A stretch of 23,857 nt of DNA from a virus: positions 1 to 23,857 of IMG/VR virus record IMGVR_UViG_3300010970_000148; one strand, given 5' to 3'. Position 1 is the first letter of the stretch; each line of letters begins with the position of its first letter. The notes below the pieces were generated by a model, which did no database searches, was not told the DNA's origin, and worked only from the letters and a program-made list of their open reading frames with translations. Of this stretch, positions 2,592-19,748 are shown piece after piece. The position numbers and the translations under genes are program-made.

Positions 2592-5500
2592 ATGGCAATA
2601 AATTACGGTCAACAACAATGGGGCGAGGACTTATTCGAAGACAGAGTCGACGATGTCGGTGGCTTGTCGTCTTTGGGTGCGGGCTCAAGCGCGCCCTCAG
2701 TTATGAGTGACGAAGCGTTGTACCAACTGACGGGAAGTTGGGAAGCGGCCGCGGCGTTGAGGGACGAGCAGAACAACGCATTAAACCAGTACAACTGGAC
2801 TGGTGGTGGTGGAGTTGGTGGCCTTAACTTAGCAAATGAGACTGTAGCGGCGCCAACAACCACCGTTGCAGACACCTCATCAAATGAGGGTAATGTTTTA
2901 ACAGGTAACATTCTTGCTGGCGCAAGTTGGAACAGCACAAACAACACTCTTGCTGATCAACTGACAGAAGCCACGGGACAACAGACATTGAACACCGCCG
3001 TTGGTGGTGCCACTTCAGCCGACACACTAAACCAACTCAATACCTTTATTGACTCTGGTGGATCATTTGCACCCGGCTCAACTGTGTTCTTGCAAACCGG
3101 CGGTGTGGACATGTTGCAGGGTGTTGACCAAAACACCATATCTAACAACATTAACCAGATTGTTTCAACCCTTGGTAACCAAGGCGTTAACGTGGTGTTG
3201 ACAGGATCACCTAATGTTTCGTCAATGAACGACGTTACCACTGGTAACTTTGACACTGGTTTGGCTTCTTTCTACAACGATATTGCCGCAAACAACAGCA
3301 ACGTTGTTCTTGTTGACTCAATGGGCAGAATCTTGCAGGATCAGTCACTATTGCGTGATGCACTGCACACCAACGCGGCAGGTGAGTCCATATACAACCA
3401 GTCTGTAATTGACGCTTATAAAACCCTTGGTGGTTTACCAACAACGAGTGGACGTGTAGCTGAATTAAACGCCCCCACCACACCCACACAGCCAGACTAC
3501 AACAAACTTGTTCAAGATGCCTACGCCACAATTGGTCGTACAGGAGTTGGTGAGGGAGCAAACCAGATTGACCAAGCGGGTCTTGACGCTTGGACTGGAG
3601 CTTTGCAAAGGGGTGAATTAAAACCCGAAGATCTAAATACTCGTTTTGCGTCTGCCGTTACAGATTACATGGCGCAGAACCCAAAGGATCAATACACACA
3701 GTACGTTAAAAATTACAAGTCTGGTTTAGAAAACGAATACCTTCAAGCAAATACTGACGTAGCTAACGAGTTTCTTACAAACAGCCGAGGCATGACTGCG
3801 GATCAGTTTGCTCAATGGCATTTTTTAAATTTTGGCAAAGAAGAAGGTCGTCCAGCTTCATCGCAAATGTTAGCCGCAGACGCAAAACTAAAGGACTTAC
3901 CAAGTGTTGGTGATTCATCTAACAGAGTAAATATTCCCGGGTACGGAGACGTTGATCCTAACGGTCTTAAAGACTGGGAGCCTTGGCGTTTAGAAATGTG
4001 GGGTCTGGCTAAAGACGTAAACGGAGACGTCAAATCAAAAGGTGGTGCAGGTTGGGAAATTGCTACCGGCGATTCAAAAACTCTTTTTGACCAGATTAAC
4101 GGTATCGCCAAGATCCCCGGCAATGACGGGATGATCTCAGGTGGTGCAACAGAAAGAAGAGAAGCTGGATTTGGTTCTAAAGAAGCTGTTATATGGGACA
4201 TGACAAACAAGTTGACCGCACAAGGCGTCACAAGTTTAGCGGATCTCAAAACACGTACAGTTCAACAAAATGTGCCCGGAGAAAGCGGCGATTACACTCA
4301 AGACGTTACCGAAATCTATAACGTTAAAACCGGACAGCCTGTAGTTTTAGAAGGCACAGGAGCGGGTAACCACCAAACCGTATATCAACTTCAACCCACA
4401 AAAGATGGGTTTGTTGTTCCAACGTCTTCTGGTACTGGAAGCCAGTGGGTTCAGTTTAGAGACTCTGTCGTCCCTATTGCGGCCTTGGCGCTTTCTGTAA
4501 TAAACCCCGCGCTTGCTCCGTACATCCAAGGCGCAAACGCATTAAATGCGGCGTCTAAAGGAGACTGGACTGGCGCAATATTAAGTGGTCTTAGTTCCGC
4601 CAGTGGGTTTGCGGGCAACACTATGGCTGAAATTGACGCACTGGCTAACGCGGGTGATTTTGCTGGAGCAAACGCGCTTTATGAAAGCAGTGTGCTTGCG
4701 CAAAACGCAAACCTTATCAACACCACAAAAACTGTTGCCGGCGGCTTGAACGCACTGGACAAAGGCAACATTATTGGTGTTGTAAATTCTGGTCTTACTT
4801 TGGGTGGTGCAAGTGTTCCCACAGAGGTAAGAACAGCGGCCACATTGTTCAACGCGGCCGCGGCACTTGGAAGCGGCGACGCCGCAACGATACTAGACGC
4901 CGCATCTTCTTTGACCGGCAGTACTGACGCCAAATTAGCCGCGTCGGCTTTAAGGTTTAAAACTGCATTTGAGTCTGGAGACCCCAACGCAATTGCAAAC
5001 GCCACAGCAGGGTTTAAAACATCAATTGAATCCGCGTCAAAAGATAACGCGGCATTCAACACGTTTAAAAATACACTGGTCGCGGGTGGTTCTTCTGACG
5101 ACGCGTTTGCCGCGGCAAGTCAGTTGACAGGCACAGACACATTTGAGGGTGTTAACCAACTGGCCTCAAATACTGCAGGCACCAACTTAACACAAGATTT
5201 ACCTGTTTCTGCAGAGGCAGAAGACATCATTTCGCAAGTAGCAGGCATCAAACCAGACGAGCTTGCGTTTGCTGGATCTGTGCCTGCACTTGGAAGTGCC
5301 GCCGCCGCAGAAACAGCCGCGTTGATGCAACGACTGGCCGCAACACCAGCGGGCCAAACAGCCCTGCGCGAGGCCGCCAACGCAAGCACAAAGGTGCGCG
5401 ATGCTTTGATTGCCACAGGTATTTTTGGAAGCGCAGGCGTTGCGTCGTTTATGCAAGGCGCCTCGTTGGTTCCTGAAAAATTAAACACACAAACAAGCAC

Positions 5501-7073
5501 TCAGAATTCTGACCTTGTTAGCCAGATCCCCACCGGCTACACACCGTTTACGCAAAGCGCAACTGTTACCACAGCGCCCGGTGTGACTGACGCGGGCGAG
5601 ATGACTGTGACTGGAACAAGACCGGCTAATATTGACGTGCTTGAAGGATTGACTAACACAGGACTCACTGGCGACCAGTACAACGAGGCAGGTGAGTTGT
5701 TGGTTGGCGGTGAGGTGTACACGCCCGGCACTGGAACAGACCAAGTGTCTGCAGACGTTGCTGGTGTCGCGCAACGTTTAGGCATCTCTAACGCAGACGC
5801 GTTGGCCATGAAACAAACAAGCCCCGGTTTGTTTGAGCAGTACAACATCTATGGTGAGAACGAGGTGTTCACACCGGCCAACGCAGAGACAATGCGTTCT
5901 ACTGATTTGATTCAAGGCCGTGAAGGTGGTGCAGACGATAACATTGTTATCAACGACGGAAAAACTAGTACTACCACGCCAACGCCAACGCCTACGCCTA
6001 CGCCTACGCCTACGCCTACGCCTACGCCTACGCCTACGCCTACGCCAACGCCTACGCCTACGCCAACGCCTACGCCTACGCCTACGCCTACGCCTACGCC
6101 TACGCCTACGCCAACGCCTACGCCTACGCCAACGCCTACGCCTACGCCTACGCCTACGCCTACGCCTACGCCTACGCCAACGCCTACGCCTACGCCAACG
6201 CCTACGCCTACGCCTACGCCTACGCCTACGCCTACGCCTACGCCAACGCCTACGCCTACGCCAACGCCTACGCCTACGCCTACGCCTACGCCTACGCCTA
6301 CGCCTACGCCAACGCCTACGCCTACGCCAACGCCTACGCCTACGCCTACGCCTACGCCTACGCCTACGCCTACGCCAACGCCTACGCCAACGCCTACGCC
6401 AACGCCTACGCCTACGCCTACGCCAACGCCAACGCCTACGCCTACGCCTACGCCTACGCCTACGCCTACGCCTACGCCTACGCCTACGCCTACGCCGAAA
6501 ATAGGTTTTGGCGGCGGATATACACCAACACCAGTCCTTGCGGCGGACACAAAGTTGTCCTACCAAAAAGTGTCGGAAGAAGCTAAGATTTTGAACCCGC
6601 TTTTGTTCAGCTTGGCGGGCGTAGCAGTACCACAATCCACTCCTGAAAAAACCTTGACAACGGAAGAAGAAAAGGATAAAAAGGAAGAGGAACAAAACAA
6701 GAAAGAGGCCCCCGCTTTGGACCTACTCAGTTTCTTCTCATTTGCTGAAGGTGGCATGGTTCCACAGCACCCCATGGGTCAACCAGAGTTTTACTCTGAG
6801 GGTGGCGCAGGAACAACCTACATCCAAGGCCGCGGTGATGGTACGTCAGACCAGATCCCCGCCATGGTGGCCAACAGCGAATTTGTGTTACCTGCGGACA
6901 TTGTGTCTGCTTTGGGTAACGGCTCCAGTGACTCTGGCGCAGACATTTTGGACCAGTTTATTAAAACAATTCGAGCACACAAGCACTCTAACCCTCCGGG
7001 CGAGTTGCCACCAGAAAGCAAAGGCCCGTTAGAATATCTCTCTAGCGTGCAAATGAAAGGAAGAAAAAAATGA
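2592..7073 (+). CDS. Giant virion protein with SGNH-like segment and (Thr-Pro)87 linker
   Basis: A 1493-residue virion-associated protein. Residues about 100-280 resemble an SGNH/GDSL hydrolase: GAS112 in place of [12 protein letters not shown] (138-139 Gly pair), LQTGGVDML in place of GxND, and D256-ALH259 as the Asp/His block. Residues about 300-420 carry YATIGR..G and YLQANTDV...[11 protein letters not shown] repeats seen in phage and surface proteins. A long Ala-rich helical part follows. Residues 1129-1302 are an uninterrupted Thr-Pro repeat. The C-terminus has [33 protein letters not shown]-type and LPP..KGPLEYL motifs common at ends of phage structural proteins. No Shine-Dalgarno precedes the ATG at 2592. 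It may be a fibre, internal or ejection protein; role uncertain. Confidence 0.75.
5976..6497 (+). repeat. Hexanucleotide tract (ACGCCW)87 encoding poly(Thr-Pro)
   Basis: Counting codons from 2592 gives exactly 87 hexamers (522 bases), each ACG-CCT or ACG-CCA, with ACG-CCG as the last. The CCA variants are not random. From 6042 to 6371 the unit order A-T-T-A-T-T-T-T-T-T-T (A = CCA, T = CCT) repeats five times without error, so an 11-hexamer (66-bp) higher-order unit was itself copied in tandem. The left edge is a partly matching copy, and the right end (from 6372) is scrambled (A-T-A-T-A). At protein level the tract is a proline-rich, probably extended spacer. Confidence 0.97.
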
Positions 7074-7891
7074 GCGTTTTTGATTCAAGTAGTACAGTTA
7101 ACACAACCCTGCCAACGTGGTTCACAACTGCACAACAAGACATTGCCACTAACAAGGCACCAACGACCTACGGGGCCATTACAGACCCTAGCAAAACCGT
7201 TGCGGCGGGTTTGATCAGCGATCTTGGTAGTCAAACGGCCAACCCTTTCACAACGGCCATTTCGGGCCTGCAGGCCTCCCAGACGGCCAACGCTAATCCT
7301 TTCTTGGAAACTGGCGCGCCCAACACGGCAAGCCCTCTGGGCGCCTTGTTTGCGTCCCAGAACGCTAAGTTGGACCAACTCCTCCCACAGCTTACCTCTC
7401 AGGTTGGCGCGGGTGGTATTGCTTCAGGCAACTATAATTCTTTACGTGGCCAAACAGCCACAGAGACAGCGCGCGCAGGCGCTTTGGCCACACTGAATGA
7501 ACAACAAAACAAAGCGGCCATGGACGCAATGCAACAGTCTATTCAAGCCGGTCAGGCGTTGGGTAACGTGGGCGCTCAATACGGCACGACGGCACTAAAC
7601 ACAGCAACCCAAGAGATGATGGGCGGCTTGCCTGCACTGGCTAAGTACAGCGACATCATCAACGCCATGGGGCCAACAACCGACAAGAGCGTGGAGACAA
7701 CCACGTCTAAAGGCGATTACGCCAACTTCTTGGCAGGTCTTACTGCAATTGGTGGCGCGGGTAACGTGCTTTCTAACGCGTACAATGCAAACACCGCGTA
7801 CCCTTGGTTGAACAAACTGCTTTCTAGTGATGTTGCGGGTGTAAACTTTGGTGGCAGTGGTAGCGGCACTTTTGGTGAAGGCGATTACTAA
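7070..7891 (+). CDS. Ala/Gln-rich virion-module protein, possible internal/ejection protein
   Basis: A 273-residue protein whose ATG overlaps the stop of the giant virion gene (ATGA, 4-base overlap), with AAAGGAAG upstream as a ribosome binding site. Residues about 100-180 form an Ala/Gln/Asn-rich helical stretch with heptad-like spacing ([19 protein letters not shown] and onward), and the C-terminus is Gly/Ser-rich. I recognise no catalytic motif. Proteins of this composition between tail genes and an SLT-bearing protein are often minor virion or DNA-ejection proteins in podoviruses; that role is inferred from position only. Confidence 0.7.
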
Positions 7892-7893
7892 TT

Positions 7894-9591
7894 ATGGAAA
7901 ACCCAACAACGACTGAACCAACAGGCGGACTGCCGCTTGTAAAAGGCGAAATGCTTGGTAAGAGTGGACTGAACGTTCTTGGTAACAAGGGCGTCGCACT
8001 TGGCATGGACGACAGCGCCAGTATCCGCGACTACCTCCAACAAATGATCAACCAACGTCAGGCTTACAAAGGTAGCTTTGAGCAGGGCATGGATCAAATG
8101 CGTTCTGTTCTTGGTGACACCCAAAACCAGATGGCCCAGAACATGCAAACGCAGAGCACTAAAGAGCGCACTAATGATCAAGACATTTTCAACATGCGCG
8201 TCAACATGGCCCAGTTGAAGACGCAAGAAGAGCGCTTGATGCAAGAGAAGATGCAAGCGGCCGCACAAAAGCAACAGTTTATGACAACCCTTGGTTTGGC
8301 AAATGCTCCTCAAGCAGGTGGTGCTCCTCAAGCAGGTGGTGTGCCTCAAGCAGGTGGTGTGCCTCAAGCAGGTGGTGTGCCTCAAGCAGGTGGTGTGCCT
8401 CAAGCAGGTGGTGTGCCTCAAGCAGGTGGTGTGCCTCAAGCAGGTGATAACCTTACCCCACAGCAAAAAATCGCGTTGCTTCAACTGTATCAAACAAACC
8501 CACAAGAGGCACAAAAGCAATACCTTGCTTTGACCAAGAAAGACGACATTGAGCGTCGTATGGAGTTAGCTGGTATTGTGCGCGGCTCACCAACATGGAA
8601 CCAAATGTTGGCGGTTAATATTGCCGGCGCTGGCGCTTTTACACCTCACGACGTTCGTGGTGTTGGTGGAACAGGACAACAGACACCGTTTGGTGCTGTT
8701 GGTGCCGCATTGGGCAATACGCCCGCACCTGCACCACAACCAAATGCAGGCGGCCTTCCTGTAGCGGCGGCTCCTACTCCTCAAGGTGCTCCTGTAGCGG
8801 CGGCTCCTACTCCGGCACCAGCAAGGCCTCCTGCTCCTGTAGCGGCGGCTCCTGCACCAACGCAGGGAAGTCCTTTTGCTCCCGGAACAAAAGAAGATCT
8901 GGAATGGAGACAGAAACAAGCGGGAGTGACTATTGCAGGAGACACAAAAGAAGCCGAAAAAATGGCCGAAACATTGGCCGCGGAACAAACCGCTTTGCGT
9001 GCCGCGGCAGACGCCGCACCAACTAACATTTTGCTTGCTAATCAAGTTATGCAGGATGTTAAAGAACACAAAGATTTGTTTGCTAAATTAAATCAACCTT
9101 CTTTAGGTTCCGCGCTTGCTGGCTTATTGAAATCCGGCGTTCAAATTGGCCAGTTTGGTTCTATCAGCGTTCCCGGCATTAACGACTTCTTACAGCAGGT
9201 TGACCCCGGCGCAAAAGACAATCCAAAACGTTTGGAGGCTTGGACACGTATTACAGCCAGCATGGCCCAGATCAACTTGGATTACGCACAACGTGTAATG
9301 AAAGGTCAAGGCGCTGTGTCTAACTTTGAACGCGAGTTAGTAGAACGTGCCGTTGGAGACATCAACCGCGATTCTGCGCGAAACATGATGGTCAAAATGA
9401 AAATGTTGGAAATTGCAAGCTCTAATGCCCAACAAATAAATGATAAGTGGGCAGAAGCACAAAAAGCTGGTTTAAATTGGCAACAATTTAAGAATAGCCC
9501 CACATACAAAGACATTAAGCGCGAACAATACTACAACACCGCTAAAACAATGCAAATCAAGAACCCTCCTAAATATCCCGGAGATGCGTAA
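7894..9591 (+). CDS. Virion-module protein with PQAGGV tandem repeat and proline-rich linker
   Basis: A 565-residue protein starting two bases after the previous stop. Order: residues 1-40 contain a GLPLVKGEMLG-type Gly-rich start; 45-130 are a Gln/Met-rich predicted coiled coil; 139-185 are eight PQAGG(V/A) hexapeptides; 190-250 are helical; about 285-325 are a Pro/Ala linker with three PVAAAP copies; the remainder is a helical domain ending in a charged Lys-rich tail. There is no Cys-rich or catalytic signature. It is followed within two bases by the SLT-bearing gene, so it probably belongs to the same virion subassembly, possibly an internal or ejection protein. The family is not recognised. 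Confidence 0.72.
   Translation: MENPTTTEPTGGLPLVKGEMLGKSGLNVLGNKGVALGMDDSASIRDYLQQMINQRQAYKGSFEQGMDQMRSVLGDTQNQMAQNMQTQSTKERTNDQDIFNMRVNMAQLKTQEERLMQEKMQAAAQKQQFMTTLGLANAPQAGGAPQAGGVPQAGGVPQAGGVPQAGGVPQAGGVPQAGGVPQAGDNLTPQQKIALLQLYQTNPQEAQKQYLALTKKDDIERRMELAGIVRGSPTWNQMLAVNIAGAGAFTPHDVRGVGGTGQQTPFGAVGAALGNTPAPAPQPNAGGLPVAAAPTPQGAPVAAAPTPAPARPPAPVAAAPAPTQGSPFAPGTKEDLEWRQKQAGVTIAGDTKEAEKMAETLAAEQTALRAAADAAPTNILLANQVMQDVKEHKDLFAKLNQPSLGSALAGLLKSGVQIGQFGSISVPGINDFLQQVDPGAKDNPKRLEAWTRITASMAQINLDYAQRVMKGQGAVSNFERELVERAVGDINRDSARNMMVKMKMLEIASSNAQQINDKWAEAQKAGLNWQQFKNSPTYKDIKREQYYNTAKTMQIKNPPKYPGDA
8308..8445 (+). repeat. 18-bp tandem repeat encoding PQAGGV
   Basis: Eight tandem units of CCTCAAGCAGGTGGTGTG. 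The first ends in GCT (Ala) instead of GTG, units 2-7 are identical, and the eighth is cut to 12 bases before GATAAC. The near-perfect identity at DNA level shows recent expansion. It encodes a flexible Pro/Gly linker between a coiled coil and a helical domain. Confidence 0.95.
8758..8853 (+). repeat. Three dispersed copies of an 18-base PVAAAP-coding repeat
   Basis: CCTGTAGCGGCGGCTCCT occurs identically at 8758-8775, 8791-8808 and 8836-8853, separated by short Pro/Thr/Gln-coding spacers of unequal length. It lies in the second linker of the same gene and suggests local duplication. Confidence 0.92.
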
Positions 9592-9593
9592 GA

Positions 9594-12500
9594 ATGGCTC
9601 AAAACAACGTGCCTGATTGGGTAACTAAACTTGATGCTAGACGGCAGGCAACTGCCAAACGCGTCATGGCCGAAGCTCAATCACAGGGTGTTCCTACTGA
9701 ACTTGCGCTTGCTATGGCTATGCAAGAAAGTGGTTTTGATCAAAGCAAAAAGTCTAAGACGGGACCAACTGGTGTAATGATGCTCGGTAAAGCGGCCGCC
9801 AAAGACATGGGCGTTAACCGGTATAACGAAACAGAAAACATTCGCGGCGGCGTCAAGTATATGAAAATGATGCTTGATAAATATAACAACGATGTTGATA
9901 AAGCGTTGATTGCTTACCATGACGGCCCAAGCAGTGAATATTTTACGACAGGACAAGCAAGTCCCGCCGCATTAAACCACATTCAAAAAGTTAGAGGGTA
10001 CGCCGGATACGAACCAACGGCGCCACAAACAACACAAACCGCGGCAACACAAACTACGGCGCCACAAGGAGCACAACCAATGGCTAAAGAAAATAAACTT
10101 GGAAGCGGCACATATCAAGTGGCCCCGTTAGATCTCGACGCGTTAGACGAGATTGATAAAATTACCAGACAAGACTCTAATAGGTTTTTAAACCCCTTTG
10201 TTCAAGGCGCGGGAGTTGTTGGTGCTATCGCTGGTGCTACGTTTGGACAAGACAAACCTAAGTCGGGTGAAAAATTTCAGGCGGAAGTTTCTCAAAGCAA
10301 AATTCCAATGCAAGCCGCACAAGTGCGCAACCAAGCTTTACAGGCCCAGTATGACGCGGATGTAAGAGCACACAACGACGCTTTGAAGTTGCGTAAAGAG
10401 TTAATGGATTCTGCGGCTAAAGTGCAAGGTGCTGACATAAGCAATTGGTCTTTAGGCCAATACAGGGGAGCAATTCCCTTTGTTGAAGGCCAAGAAGCTT
10501 TAAGTATGAAAGAAGCTGGGACAATGGGTGAAGAAGGCGTTAAAAAAGAGCGTCAAGCCCGAGCCATGATGCCCGGGGTTAAGTTTGATAAGACAACAGG
10601 TCTTATGCTTCCCCCCTCTGCCGCACCGGCTCCTATACCACAAATTCCTCAACAACACCCTTTGCTACAGGGGTTGCCTCCTTATCCTCAACCACTTACG
10701 TTGGAACGTGTACCAACGCCTAAAACAGTAAGCCCCGGCTCACGTTTTGGTCAAGGTGCTAACGCTGTATCTGGTGGTTTGGCAGGCATTCAAGCCGCGG
10801 ACGCATACCAACGCGGAACCAATGATCCTGTTGGTGCAGGACTCGGTGCTTTAAGTTCCGTAGGCTTTGGAGCAACTGCGGCAGGCAACCCCAAAGCTAA
10901 AGCTTATGGCGCGGCGGCGGGTGTTATCGGTGGAGCGGCGCAAAAAGTGTGGGATGTTTTTAACACTAAAGACGAAACCAAGTCAGTACTGCAATCCGAT
11001 GGCTCCCCCGTCAAGTATAAAAAAGGTGGTGCAGTAAAAAAGCCGGTCGGCGGCTTGCCCGCCGTTGAGCACTTTGACGGTGGTGGCCGTACAGGTCTGT
11101 TAAAAACCGCAGGTAGTAAAATTGCAGGTGCGTTTGGTCAGGCCCCCGGCCAGTTGATCATTCCCTCTGCTGAAGAGATTGCTAAGTTTGCACCAAAGCC
11201 AACTAAGCAAATTAAGTTCAGCGAGGCCATCAGGCCGTACCAAGACCACTATCTTGGCGTGCACATGTCTGACAGACAGGGTGTTCACGGCGGTCGTTGG
11301 GGCGGCACAGGTTTCCCCAACTTCCAAAACACTAACCCCCTTCACGCGGCCAACAAGGCTGTGTGGATGAACGACAGTGAAGAGGCCGCCAACAAGCTAA
11401 TTCAGACCGCCAGAGAGTTTAACGGCCGTCCCATGGTCAACACCAACTACATTGGTGCGCCAGACCAACACAGGTCCAACAAGACCGTGTTCAATGACGT
11501 GCTTGAAACGTTTTACAAGAACTACGCCGCGGGTGATGTAACACCAGAGCAAATTGAGAAAATCAACCAAGCCATTCTGAGCAAGGCCAAGACAACAGGC
11601 ACGCTGAAAAACCTCCCGTTCAATGACAAGTTTGACATCATGGACAAGGACGCGGTCAGGGCAATTGCCGGACAAACGTTTGAGGGCCGCAAGGCAATCG
11701 GCGACTTGCTTGGCATGGGTCTTGGCACACGCAAGCCCGCAACCGTGCCCCAGTATGCAAACATCTTAGAAGACCACGCAGACCCCTTCACTAAGGGCGC
11801 GCCTACAAGCGCGGTGGGCACTCGTTTGTTTACAGTAGACAACTTGCCTGCGCAGTACGCAGACGACGTGTTGCACCCAGACTATCGTTGGAAAGTAACC
11901 GGTGAAGACAAGCAGGTGCAGTTCCCCGCGGTGCCACAGAATATTGCCGTGCGTGACTGGTACAACGAGATCAAGCCTCGTATTGGCATGGAGCCCCACG
12001 GCAACGCATGGTTCTCTTATCCAAAGCGACCACAACTTATCAGCAAGGACTACATCACCATGGCAGAAGACGCGGGGTATGCGGGCGGTGGTTTGGTACA
12101 GCACTTTGACGGTGGTGGCAAGGTGGGTGGGTTGACGCGAATTGCGCAGTCCGCGTACGACATGCTCAAGCTGACGCCTGAGAAGGTTGACGCGTGGCGC
12201 AAGCTGAACGCAAAGCCCTACAAGCAACAACAGGACCCCCAACTGGCTCAAGCGCTTGAAGCCTACATGACAGGCAAGATCTCGCAGGCTGACTACCTGC
12301 GCATCATGAACGAGCGCAGGCCAATTCGCCCGTTGACTGAGTTACCAACCGCGCACTCCAACATTGACATTGTGTCTGCACTGGACAAGAACAAAGCCGA
12401 CAAGGGCATTCTGGGTTTGAACCTGCAAGTGCCTGAGGGCATGCGCGTAGGCAACCGCCTTGACATCCCCGCATACGAGCGCTACGGCACCTACGTTGAC

Positions 12501-12953
12501 ACAATGCACGACACTGCAGGCAAGCCTATTGGGTATGGTCACACAGGCCATTTAAAAGACGTGGAGTTTCAGTCTGATCCCAACAGGGCCATTCGCGTGG
12601 GTCTTGGAACCAGAGAGCAAGCGTTGACCCCATTGTCTGTAGAAGAGGGTTCGAACAAGGGTCCGTTTGCTATGATGATGGGCAACCAACAAACAACCAA
12701 AGACGAGGAAGTCCGCAGGATGCTTGCAGAGGCCCTAAAGGACCCCTCATGGCGCCAGATCGGCATGAACCCATACCGTGGGTCACAATTCTATGACAAG
12801 GCCGACATGCAACCCGTGTGGAGCGCGGCTGAAAAGATTCAGGCCGGTCCACTGGTGTTGGCCCGTGACGTAGAGAAAACGTCGTGGAAAGACCCACGAC
12901 TAAAAACCAAGTACGGCGTGAACTACGCGCAGGGTGGTTTGACACACTTGTAA
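9594..12953 (+). CDS. SLT lytic transglycosylase-bearing virion protein with polyvalent-type C-terminal modules
   Basis: A 1119-residue protein that probably cuts peptidoglycan during DNA entry. Residues about 15-135 form an SLT domain: ALAMAMQESGFD with catalytic Glu45, TGPTGVMML for the GLMQ block, and NIRGGVKYM...ALIAYHDGP. Residues 150-370 are linker and helical; 385-450 are Gly/Ala-rich and hydrophobic. HFDGGG linkers occur at 493-498 and 837-842. The segment between them contains GGTGFP...and DQHRSN, and residues about 945-1095 contain RLDIPAY, IGYGHTGHLKDVEF, DPSWRQIGMNPYR and AGPLVLA. These patterns resemble domains of large polyvalent proteins. By analogy with T7 gp16 or P22 ejection proteins it may be injected, but this is inference. 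The ATG follows the previous stop by two bases. Confidence 0.75.
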   Translation: MAQNNVPDWVTKLDARRQATAKRVMAEAQSQGVPTELALAMAMQESGFDQSKKSKTGPTGVMMLGKAAAKDMGVNRYNETENIRGGVKYMKMMLDKYNNDVDKALIAYHDGPSSEYFTTGQASPAALNHIQKVRGYAGYEPTAPQTTQTAATQTTAPQGAQPMAKENKLGSGTYQVAPLDLDALDEIDKITRQDSNRFLNPFVQGAGVVGAIAGATFGQDKPKSGEKFQAEVSQSKIPMQAAQVRNQALQAQYDADVRAHNDALKLRKELMDSAAKVQGADISNWSLGQYRGAIPFVEGQEALSMKEAGTMGEEGVKKERQARAMMPGVKFDKTTGLMLPPSAAPAPIPQIPQQHPLLQGLPPYPQPLTLERVPTPKTVSPGSRFGQGANAVSGGLAGIQAADAYQRGTNDPVGAGLGALSSVGFGATAAGNPKAKAYGAAAGVIGGAAQKVWDVFNTKDETKSVLQSDGSPVKYKKGGAVKKPVGGLPAVEHFDGGGRTGLLKTAGSKIAGAFGQAPGQLIIPSAEEIAKFAPKPTKQIKFSEAIRPYQDHYLGVHMSDRQGVHGGRWGGTGFPNFQNTNPLHAANKAVWMNDSEEAANKLIQTAREFNGRPMVNTNYIGAPDQHRSNKTVFNDVLETFYKNYAAGDVTPEQIEKINQAILSKAKTTGTLKNLPFNDKFDIMDKDAVRAIAGQTFEGRKAIGDLLGMGLGTRKPATVPQYANILEDHADPFTKGAPTSAVGTRLFTVDNLPAQYADDVLHPDYRWKVTGEDKQVQFPAVPQNIAVRDWYNEIKPRIGMEPHGNAWFSYPKRPQLISKDYITMAEDAGYAGGGLVQHFDGGGKVGGLTRIAQSAYDMLKLTPEKVDAWRKLNAKPYKQQQDPQLAQALEAYMTGKISQADYLRIMNERRPIRPLTELPTAHSNIDIVSALDKNKADKGILGLNLQVPEGMRVGNRLDIPAYERYGTYVDTMHDTAGKPIGYGHTGHLKDVEFQSDPNRAIRVGLGTREQALTPLSVEEGSNKGPFAMMMGNQQTTKDEEVRRMLAEALKDPSWRQIGMNPYRGSQFYDKADMQPVWSAAEKIQAGPLVLARDVEKTSWKDPRLKTKYGVNYAQGGLTHL
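11068..12119 (+). repeat. In-frame 20-bp direct repeats bounding a 344-codon module
   Basis: The identical 20-mer AGCACTTTGACGGTGGTGGC occurs at 11068-11087 and 12100-12119. The distance is 1032 bases, exactly 344 codons, so recombination between copies would remove or duplicate the module in frame. Both encode the HFDGGG linker, and both are preceded by Gly/Val-rich linkers, which marks this as a module boundary within the SLT protein. Confidence 0.9.
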
Positions 12954-18042: not shown

Positions 18043-18558
18043 TTAGACCGCGAAGTCAGAGGCGGCAGAAGAACCACCACCCAAACGCTCACCATCTTCC
18101 AACTTTTGCAAGTTGTTCAAACCGCAGGCAATGCCCTTGGAGCCTTGTTGGTTGTACGCGTAGAACGTCAAAGACGCTCTGCCGTAGCAACCAGAGTACA
18201 CCTCGTCGGGGTCAAGGATTGGGTTTAGATCAGCATCCACAACACCGGGCTTTTGGTGCGTGTTGGCGTTAATGAAATAAGAGTTTGCGTACGCAGGATC
18301 ATCCTTCTCCGTGTCTCCGTCACGCAAACCGCCTTTAAGGTTTTTAGGGATTGTCCCGCCAAAAACTGAAGCATTTGCCGCTTTGGCTCTTTCAAAAGCC
18401 GCATTGATTCGGTCAATGGTATCCTTATCTTTTTTATCGATAATGATAGACACAGAAAACTTAGGCGTCATTCCCTCTTCCATTGCAACGGCTTTAAACA
18501 CGTGAACAAAAGAAAAACGAACTTTATTGGTAACCACTTTTTCAACGATTTTGGCCAT
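18043..18558 (-). CDS. ssb: Single-stranded DNA-binding protein, DUF2815 (Enc34-type)
   Basis: A 171-residue protein with the DUF2815 pattern: VRFSFVHVFKAVAMEEG near the start, KFSVSIIIDKKDKDTIDRI, an insertion with LKGGLRDGDTEKDDPAY, and a C-terminal OB-fold segment DPDEVYSGCYGRASLTFYAY...GIACGLNNLQKLEDGERLGG. The founding structure, from phage Enc34, shows an OB-fold ssDNA-binding protein. It would coat single strands during replication and recombination. The usual acidic C-terminal tip is modest here (SDFAV). AAGGAGG sits seven bases before the ATG, the strongest ribosome binding site in the cluster, which fits a highly expressed SSB. It is flanked by hairpins and by an 8-bp repeat in its leader. 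Confidence 0.88.
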   Translation of the reverse strand: MAKIVEKVVTNKVRFSFVHVFKAVAMEEGMTPKFSVSIIIDKKDKDTIDRINAAFERAKAANASVFGGTIPKNLKGGLRDGDTEKDDPAYANSYFINANTHQKPGVVDADLNPILDPDEVYSGCYGRASLTFYAYNQQGSKGIACGLNNLQKLEDGERLGGGSSAASDFAV

Positions 18559-18623: not shown

Positions 18624-19748
18624 TCAAGACCCAAACTCTTCCTTCAACTTCGAGGGCACCAGTTTTGGTTCCCCTGCCGGCTTGACAATCAGGTCACCAA
18701 GAATTTCTTGGAGGTGCCCTTTGCCTACCTGCTTTTCTAATTGTGCCACAGATTTCAAACTGGGTTCGGTGAATATATCACTAAATCCGGCTTTCTGCAA
18801 CTTTTTCGCCGCATCCTCTTGCGCCTCAATTTTACGATTTGTGCTTGACTGCCCCAACTCGTAACCTGTAGGCACTATGCCATGGTCCGTGGCCTGTGTC
18901 AACATATACCCTTCAACATCTGCCAACCACTTGCGTGTCTTGGAAGCGTCCTTGAGTACCTTTGCCAACTCGCTGTCGGACAAGAGTGATGGCGCCTTGA
19001 AATCGGCCGCCGCCGCGACATTGTTGAAGTCCGCTCGGGCTCGGCACTGGGCCTTGGCTCGACAGAACTGACAATGATCTCCCGCCACAAAATCCCCTTG
19101 GCCGGCATACGCCTTCTTGGCCTTGGGTTTAACTACATGCTCGGCCCAATCTTGCAAACTGTCTAGCGTCACCGTTTCGGTGGTGATGCTGTCCAGTCGG
19201 GGTTGGTGAATTGTATATTCGACGTGGGTGATGTTTGGGTGGGCGTCTTTGTACTTGTACCAACCACCAAGGCCGTACAGCCTCAGTTGTGGGTTGTCCG
19301 CGGCGTCCACTGCAACTCCCTTGCCGAATTTAAGATCAATCACGCGAACTTTGTTCTCGCTCATGATAACCACGTCGGCCGTGCCGAAGCCGTCTGGCAC
19401 CCACTCGCTGAAGTCCACCCGTTGCTCAAAGTAAGGGGTATCCCCCTCACCAATCTGCGAACGAACGTAGAGCACGTAGTTGTCCACGTGCGCCTCGAAG
19501 TCCTCGTCGTAGTAGGGTGTCGCCTTGACCTCTGCAATGGCCTCGTTGTACTCCTTGGCCGTCATCTGACCGAAATGACGGCGTAGCTTGGCCTCTGCCA
19601 TAGTGTGGGCTGTGGTGCCCTCTTGGCTGAAGTCAAACGCGCCGGATTTTCGTTTAGGTTCGGGGAGTACGGCCTCTAGTCGCGCGCTTGGTGTACAAGA
19701 CATCCAACGCTTGGACCCTGAGGCACTGAGTAGTGCATGTGCTGTGAT
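18624..19748 (-). CDS. DUF2800 Cas4/RecB-like nuclease, non-standard start
   Basis: A PD-(D/E)XK nuclease of the DUF2800 group, likely with an Fe-S cluster. If it starts at the ATC at 19748, it has 374 residues: AHALLSASGSKRWMSC (Cys18), EGTTAH, GTAD125VV, VID138LK140FG, QLRLYG (Gln154), and C226-x2-C229-x5-C235, the Cas4-type cysteine layout. Good motifs upstream of the first usual start (ATG 19703) show that the true N-terminus lies there, and AAAGGAG is six bases before the ATC. No ATG, GTG or TTG is available. Either ATC initiates, or one base was misread (ATG to ATC). It is followed by the SSB gene; a recombination or end-processing role is likely. Confidence 0.85.
   Translation of the reverse strand: MTAHALLSASGSKRWMSCTPSARLEAVLPEPKRKSGAFDFSQEGTTAHTMAEAKLRRHFGQMTAKEYNEAIAEVKATPYYDEDFEAHVDNYVLYVRSQIGEGDTPYFEQRVDFSEWVPDGFGTADVVIMSENKVRVIDLKFGKGVAVDAADNPQLRLYGLGGWYKYKDAHPNITHVEYTIHQPRLDSITTETVTLDSLQDWAEHVVKPKAKKAYAGQGDFVAGDHCQFCRAKAQCRARADFNNVAAAADFKAPSLLSDSELAKVLKDASKTRKWLADVEGYMLTQATDHGIVPTGYELGQSSTNRKIEAQEDAAKKLQKAGFSDIFTEPSLKSVAQLEKQVGKGHLQEILGDLIVKPAGEPKLVPSKLKEEFGS

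Follow-up and report, generated by a model that had tools for sequence, protein, structure and literature searches.

In-frame seam words mark module exchange within a probable phage ejection protein

Results

The modular gene and its surroundings

We analysed one window, a virus record of 23,857 bases taken at its full length, in which the virion genes lie on the plus strand. The genes for a virion structural protein (169-2295; phrog_3287, E 2.9e-27) and a virion-type protein of 1493 aa (2592-7073; weak tape-measure match at its C-terminus, E 0.0015) are followed by genes for proteins of 273 aa (7070-7891) and 565 aa (7894-9591), and directly after the latter, on the same strand, stands the modular gene of 1119 aa (9594..12953). 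The order and sizes of these last three products (273, 565 and 1119 aa) appear to recall gp14-gp15-gp16 of T7, which are given as 196, 747 and 1318 aa in PMC8954989. The minus strand of the window encodes DNA polymerase A, a B12-type ribonucleotide reductase, a DUF2800 protein, an SNF2-type helicase, an Enc34-type ssDNA-binding protein, a glutaredoxin and a dATP/dGTP diphosphohydrolase domain; the ssDNA-binding protein (18043-18555) and the DUF2800 protein, which shows PD-(D/E)XK nuclease similarity (18624-19703), adjoin each other and may be a recombination pair. Inside the 1493-aa protein, about 87 copies of ACGCCT (5976-6496) encode a Thr-Pro run of roughly 170 residues. An 18-nt unit encoding PQAGGV is repeated 7.7 times in the gene of the 565-aa protein (8308-8446), and pairwise breakpoints cluster in that gene.

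The N-terminal chassis of the modular protein contains an SLT lytic transglycosylase domain (9669..9935; PF01464, residues 26-114, E 1.8e-15), so that the earlier note had labelled the gene correctly as an SLT protein, and over residues 22-247 it matches phrog_342, "internal virion protein with endolysin domain" (E 4.9e-16). Two weakly hydrophobic Gly/Ala-rich segments follow in the chassis (10185..10241 and 10830..10886; weak Kyte-Doolittle 19-residue peaks of 1.20 and 1.22 respectively); at the threshold used for the window chassis, no such segment was found in L021 and L154 (L-numbers label relative loci, nearly all of which are metagenome contigs). Seam 1 (KKGGAVKKPVGGLPAVEHFDGGG, 11019..11087) leads into module A, which is of the A1 type (11088..12077; profile of 29 sequences, mean pLDDT of the AlphaFold model 86.1), and seam 2 (YAGGGLVQHFDGGG, 12078..12119) into module B (12120..12923; profile of 42 sequences, mean pLDDT 88.9). 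The C-terminus, a half-seam YAQGGLTHL (12924..12950), looks like a third, shortened seam; it is here that the proteins of L043, L044 and L045 continue beyond B into a further module, D.

Each of the two seams ends in one copy of an exact direct repeat of 20 nt, AGCACTTTGACGGTGGTGGC (11068-11087 and 12100-12119), so that the repeat joins the three parts of the protein: SLT chassis, module A and module B. The copies are 1032 nt (344 codons) apart and both in frame within ORF 9594-12953 (plus strand), the product being (E/Q)HFDGGG; direct inspection of the sequence thus bears out the spacing, frame and HFDGGG products that had been claimed for them. No other exact repeat of at least 18 nt occurs in the window outside the arrays at about 5800-6800 and 8200-8900. 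Codon-shuffled versions of the gene yielded no 20-nt repeat in 2000 shuffles, and identical codons at all six positions of the two HFDGGG words have a probability of about 0.012 under the gene's own codon usage.

Module architectures and seam words in relatives

Searches with module A recovered 15 close loci with a sequence query and 46 viral loci with a profile, and those with module B 35 close loci and 354 viral loci respectively, of which 80 were kept for analysis; one B locus, a MAG contig, came from a search of genome contigs. The tabulated architectures leave out L048, a fragment. A usable ORF was present in 34 close loci with module B. In 33 of these an A-type module precedes B, the 34th (L045) being cut at its 5' end. 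The best match is A1 in 17 of the 34 (47-93% identical to A of the window) and A2 in 16 (about 27-30% identical). Among these 34 loci no relative simply without A was found, and the change seen for A is therefore replacement. An ART module stands before B in six of the 34 (L019, L020 and L043-L046); the cut-off of ART-PolyVal PF18760 (31.2 bits) was exceeded in L019 (45.2 bits) and L043 (33.9 bits), and in another search in 4 of 12 records. Among the relatives, SLT and ART-PolyVal occur together in single proteins; in the window protein, SLT is the sole domain of known activity.

Other arrangements include N-A1-ART-B'-D (L145), N-A1-B'-D (L147) and N-A2-ART-B'-D (L171), and a chassis without SLT precedes A in L146, L148, L157 and L169. 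The proteins of L146, L148 and L157 end in a cysteine-containing domain of about 80 residues (WxRSEGKNPEGGLN...), which presumably resembles DUF6321. Beyond the close loci many B-bearing proteins have no A. In the Roseobacter phages CRP-9 and CRP-207 and in a spring phage, B lies in the gene right after the portal gene. In L088 (1-5800) a protein of 1932 aa ends in module B, which is preceded by a zeta-toxin domain (PF06414, E 4.3e-12). The C-terminus of the 1493-aa protein of the window holds the words FAEGG...YSEGG and a D(Q/D)IPAMxxxSEFVxPADIV-like motif, and the same words and motif recur in the post-portal protein of L050-L052, the carrier of module B in those loci.

The seams share one form, GG, a short word and GG again, mostly preceded by [YF]A ([YF]AxGG-like), and the word is alike within one gene and different between lineages. 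In the clade of the window the words are HFDGGG, HFDKGG, HFDRGG and HYDKGG; LQSGGNPK-like words occur in L043, L044, L145, L147 and L171, GYAGGKAV three times in L146, and HFA(E/D)GR in L148. The second seam of L025 is shorter (FAEGGKVGG). Between seams of one gene, identical residues are written with the same codon in 167 of 283 comparisons, which are not independent of one another, against 122.1 expected; this likeness is absent in several genes (L146, L040, L008 and L039).

Exchange of modules at the seams

The relatives show that the seams are joints where modules change. L044 and L171 are 98.7% identical over 3079 nt upstream into the chassis, 98.1% over ART and 98.7% over 2066 nt after B (90-100% per 100 columns in the matched parts, 87.8% farther upstream), and both A and B are replaced between them; the borders of B fall within the seam words, those of A some 15-25 residues past them. 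L035 and L041 are 99.9% identical over 2161 nt ending at the HF of seam 1, after which A differs; their B alleles are 83% alike, and the sequences after the gene mostly 98-100%. An ART module bounded by seams makes the difference between L019 and L021, and likewise between L145 and L147.

In a survey of 38 genes collapsed to 30 non-redundant ones, 94 of 173 sharp pairwise breakpoints lay within 45 nt of a seam against 13.2 expected for uniform positions, where the pairs are not independent and the expectation is somewhat low because nearness was counted in either gene and the expectation uses one. Counted as distinct breakpoint contexts, 50 of 90 lay within this distance. The 79 breakpoints away from seams cluster about 110 nt before seam 1 (its lead-in), where SLT ends and within A. 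The comparison of homologues for module presence and linkers, which the earlier note had proposed, thus agrees with its reading of the HFDGGG repeats as seams: other modules lie between the seams of relatives, many DNA breakpoints fall on them, and HFDGGG-type seams recur in relatives and in another gene type. What would have refuted that reading according to the note, one module shared by all relatives and no further HFDGGG seams, is not what we found. The note's suggestion that recombination adds or deletes a module in frame holds in part, for ART is present or absent between seams; module A, however, was seen in the close loci only as replaced and never simply missing, and the window's own two copies were never seen recombining.

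The modular gene is not itself a breakpoint hot spot, a possibility ruled out by the flanks as controls: sharp breakpoints per aligned kb number 0.62 in the gene, 0.41 in the 3 kb downstream and 1.33 in the 3 kb upstream. None of the 203 downstream breakpoints falls in the first 2000 nt (the position of polA in the window), all lying beyond, and the window's own upstream breakpoints are found at 7852-8933, mostly in the gene with repeat arrays (7894-9591). The flanking virion genes and the gene borders are also mosaic, and recombination itself is therefore general and ordinary in these genomes; what is particular to the modular gene is that crossovers occur within the coding sequence at in-frame seams. 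A search of 12 records for Erf, the sole recombinase family searched, gave no match.

Reassortment and a second gene type

A DNA tree of module B was built with 23 rows, from 27 listed, near-copies or 5'-cut loci having been removed beforehand and L145, L147 and L171 (B' type) and L047 (truncated) excluded; 11 of its 20 inner branches are well supported. On this tree the A type changes seven times for seven A2 rows, i.e., A2 sits on seven separate branches, and the N type changes 11 times. Combinations of N and A require 15 changes against a mean of 15.2 in shuffled data, a number as low being reached in 118 of 200 shuffles. Within the clade of the window, N, A and B look freely reassorted.

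The exact 20-mer was found in 10 stretches of viral contigs, encoding HFDGGG in all 10 (ORFs of 727-1439 aa, some cut). Two of these belong to the close family (L035 and L036). The remaining eight include near-copies and represent another type of gene, which has no SLT match and in which the 20-mer likewise stands at module borders. A match to A was obtained in six of the eight and a match to ART in five, L179 having neither. In L173 and L178, which both have this kind of gene, the flanks of an ART module unique to L178 are 86% and 96% alike, and the borders of this module lie at GG seams. Seam words are stacked in tandem in L173, L181 and L126 of the same gene type (MAEGG.AFKTLQFK.EGG.AFKTLQFK).

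What modules A and B may be

Module A matched no Pfam family at E 0.1 in 29 members. Module B of the window scores 14.4 bits against Phage_L5_gp82 (PF25735), below the curated cut-off of 27 bits, and 35 of 42 B-family sequences match this family at E up to 0.1 (best 2e-8); on these scores B is a predicted distant relative of PF25735, not a member. Foldseek gave no match to the PDB at E up to 0.001 for the model of either module, and in VIA-align no Z of at least 2 was obtained for B and at most Z 4.7 for A (82 residues, rmsd 3.4), which we took as uninformative. The profiles of A and B gave weak partial matches only to PDB sequences. Against BFVD the model of A has 18 matches at E up to 0.001, 12 of them to uncultured Caudovirales phage and five nameless, and one is the "Structural protein" of a Flavobacterium phage (E 1.8e-4). 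Among 50,697 named phage records the B query had three matches and the A query none. An ART-like fold for B, suggested by the spacing of motifs, found no support.

Discussion

The modular protein probably enters bacteria by injection, together with the viral DNA: its homology to phrog_342 and its place in the virion gene block point to a location in the virion. With moderate confidence we interpret it as an ejection protein of the polyvalent type whose cassettes are exchanged at in-frame seams specific to each lineage. The SLT chassis would open the cell wall, and the C-terminal module train (A1 or A2, ART, B or B', D) would be delivered with the genome as anti-host cargo. Modules would be traded by homologous recombination between phages, at the conserved lead-in of about 100 nt to seam 1 or, as a presumed route, at the seam word itself. 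As all seams are in one frame, recombination there replaces, inserts or removes a whole module and leaves the frame intact; its likely purpose would be a fast diversification of the cargo for the first minutes of infection. Only tentatively do we go further and regard the whole as a cassette-exchange system of injected proteins, in which a lineage's own seam word would be a standard connector, and effector modules would be traded, stacked and dropped between phages and genes. Phages would thereby have an equivalent of the polymorphic toxin tips, and early anti-host effectors would gain two new families in A and B.

Ordinary phage mosaicism, in which crossovers survive selection at interdomain linkers and the seams are passive and alike by co-copying with the modules, would fit the densities of sharp breakpoints in the 3-kb flanks, which are similar to or higher than that in the gene, and the domain exchange already described among ejection proteins (PMC8954989). 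We consider it a somewhat unlikely alternative, however: every lineage has its own seam word, which the joints of one gene share in similar form, seam codons match beyond codon usage (in pairs that are not independent), and the same exact 20-mer borders modules in another gene type. The seams might instead be protease sites, a cut at GG after assembly or injection freeing the modules and exchange being a by-product, in keeping with the GG word at every joint and with the embedded metallopeptidases proposed in PMC5512222 to process polyvalent proteins; yet the seam word itself varies between lineages and Peptidase_S78 was not found in 12 records, which makes this improbable. MPTase-PolyVal had no match in the same number of records, but the control of that search was also matchless, and this negative carries no weight.

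The main functional alternative takes A and B as structural parts of the ejection machine, the swaps tracking the host envelope or partner proteins. That the fold of A recurs in large phage proteins, one of them named "Structural protein", and that nearly every close locus has A or A2, as expected of a needed part, speak for it, as does the binding of DNA in the cytoplasm by T7 gp16-C (PMC8954989); the move of B to a different gene in other phages, its neighbourhood to ART or zeta-toxin domains and the many B-bearing proteins without A speak against it. We take effector cargo as the most likely role of A and B, above this alternative, which we judge unlikely; ARTs of the polyvalent type have been proposed to modify host proteins after delivery (PMC5512222). 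Very improbable, finally, is a reading in which chance or slippage produced the repeat and faulty assembly the swaps. Shared words can lead an assembler to a false join, and nearly all relatives are metagenome contigs; against this stand the shuffles, none of which gave a 20-nt repeat, the distribution of A2 over separate branches of the B tree, and the same architecture in several records (L041 = L042 = L049; near-copies L019/L020, L021/L023 and L173/L181), which come from possibly non-independent samples.

An ejection protein exchanging cassettes at seams would have one of its nearest likenesses in the polyvalent proteins (Iyer et al. 2017, PMC5512222), which are also multidomain, are thought to be packaged and injected, and carry ART-PolyVal and peptidoglycan-degrading domains. 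For one group of them that paper raises a possible recombinational variability like that of polymorphic toxins, although its main text contains no linker, glycine or shuffling terms; in the present case, near-identical phages are seen to exchange modules at in-frame seam words. In contrast to polyvalent proteins, modules A and B of the window have no Pfam name. Ejection proteins of the T7 gp16 and P22 type, as described in PMC8954989, likewise have an N-terminal transglycosylase, a large C-terminal part and mosaic domain swaps. The window protein differs from them in that its C-terminal cargo is a module train with repeated seams, with ART in some relatives, and in its candidate membrane segments, which are weak, two membrane-crossing regions being typical of T7 gp16-like proteins. 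In polymorphic toxin systems a constant delivery part is combined with variable C-terminal tips that are exchanged at a conserved junction; the constant part and the variable cargo are shared with the present case, whereas here several serial internal modules, each bounded by seams, are borne by phages. Modular evolution of lambdoid phages involves short shared linker or boundary sequences at module joints as exchange sites, but the seams described here are internal to a single coding sequence and keep its reading frame, recur at every joint and are specific to a lineage. Polyvalent proteins, the mosaicism of ejection proteins and general recombinational variability have thus been described before (PMC5512222, PMC8954989). 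None of the titles or abstracts found by our literature searches describes an in-frame exchange at seam words specific to lineages, and a term search of the paper on CRP-9 (PMC8528129) gave none of five terms.

The comparison shows that near-identical phage genomes exchange modules within a multidomain protein which the virion probably delivers, and the GG-seam words provide a simple rule for finding such modules. A and B are common yet unnamed modules; if they are effectors, they would offer new activities against the host or its defences.
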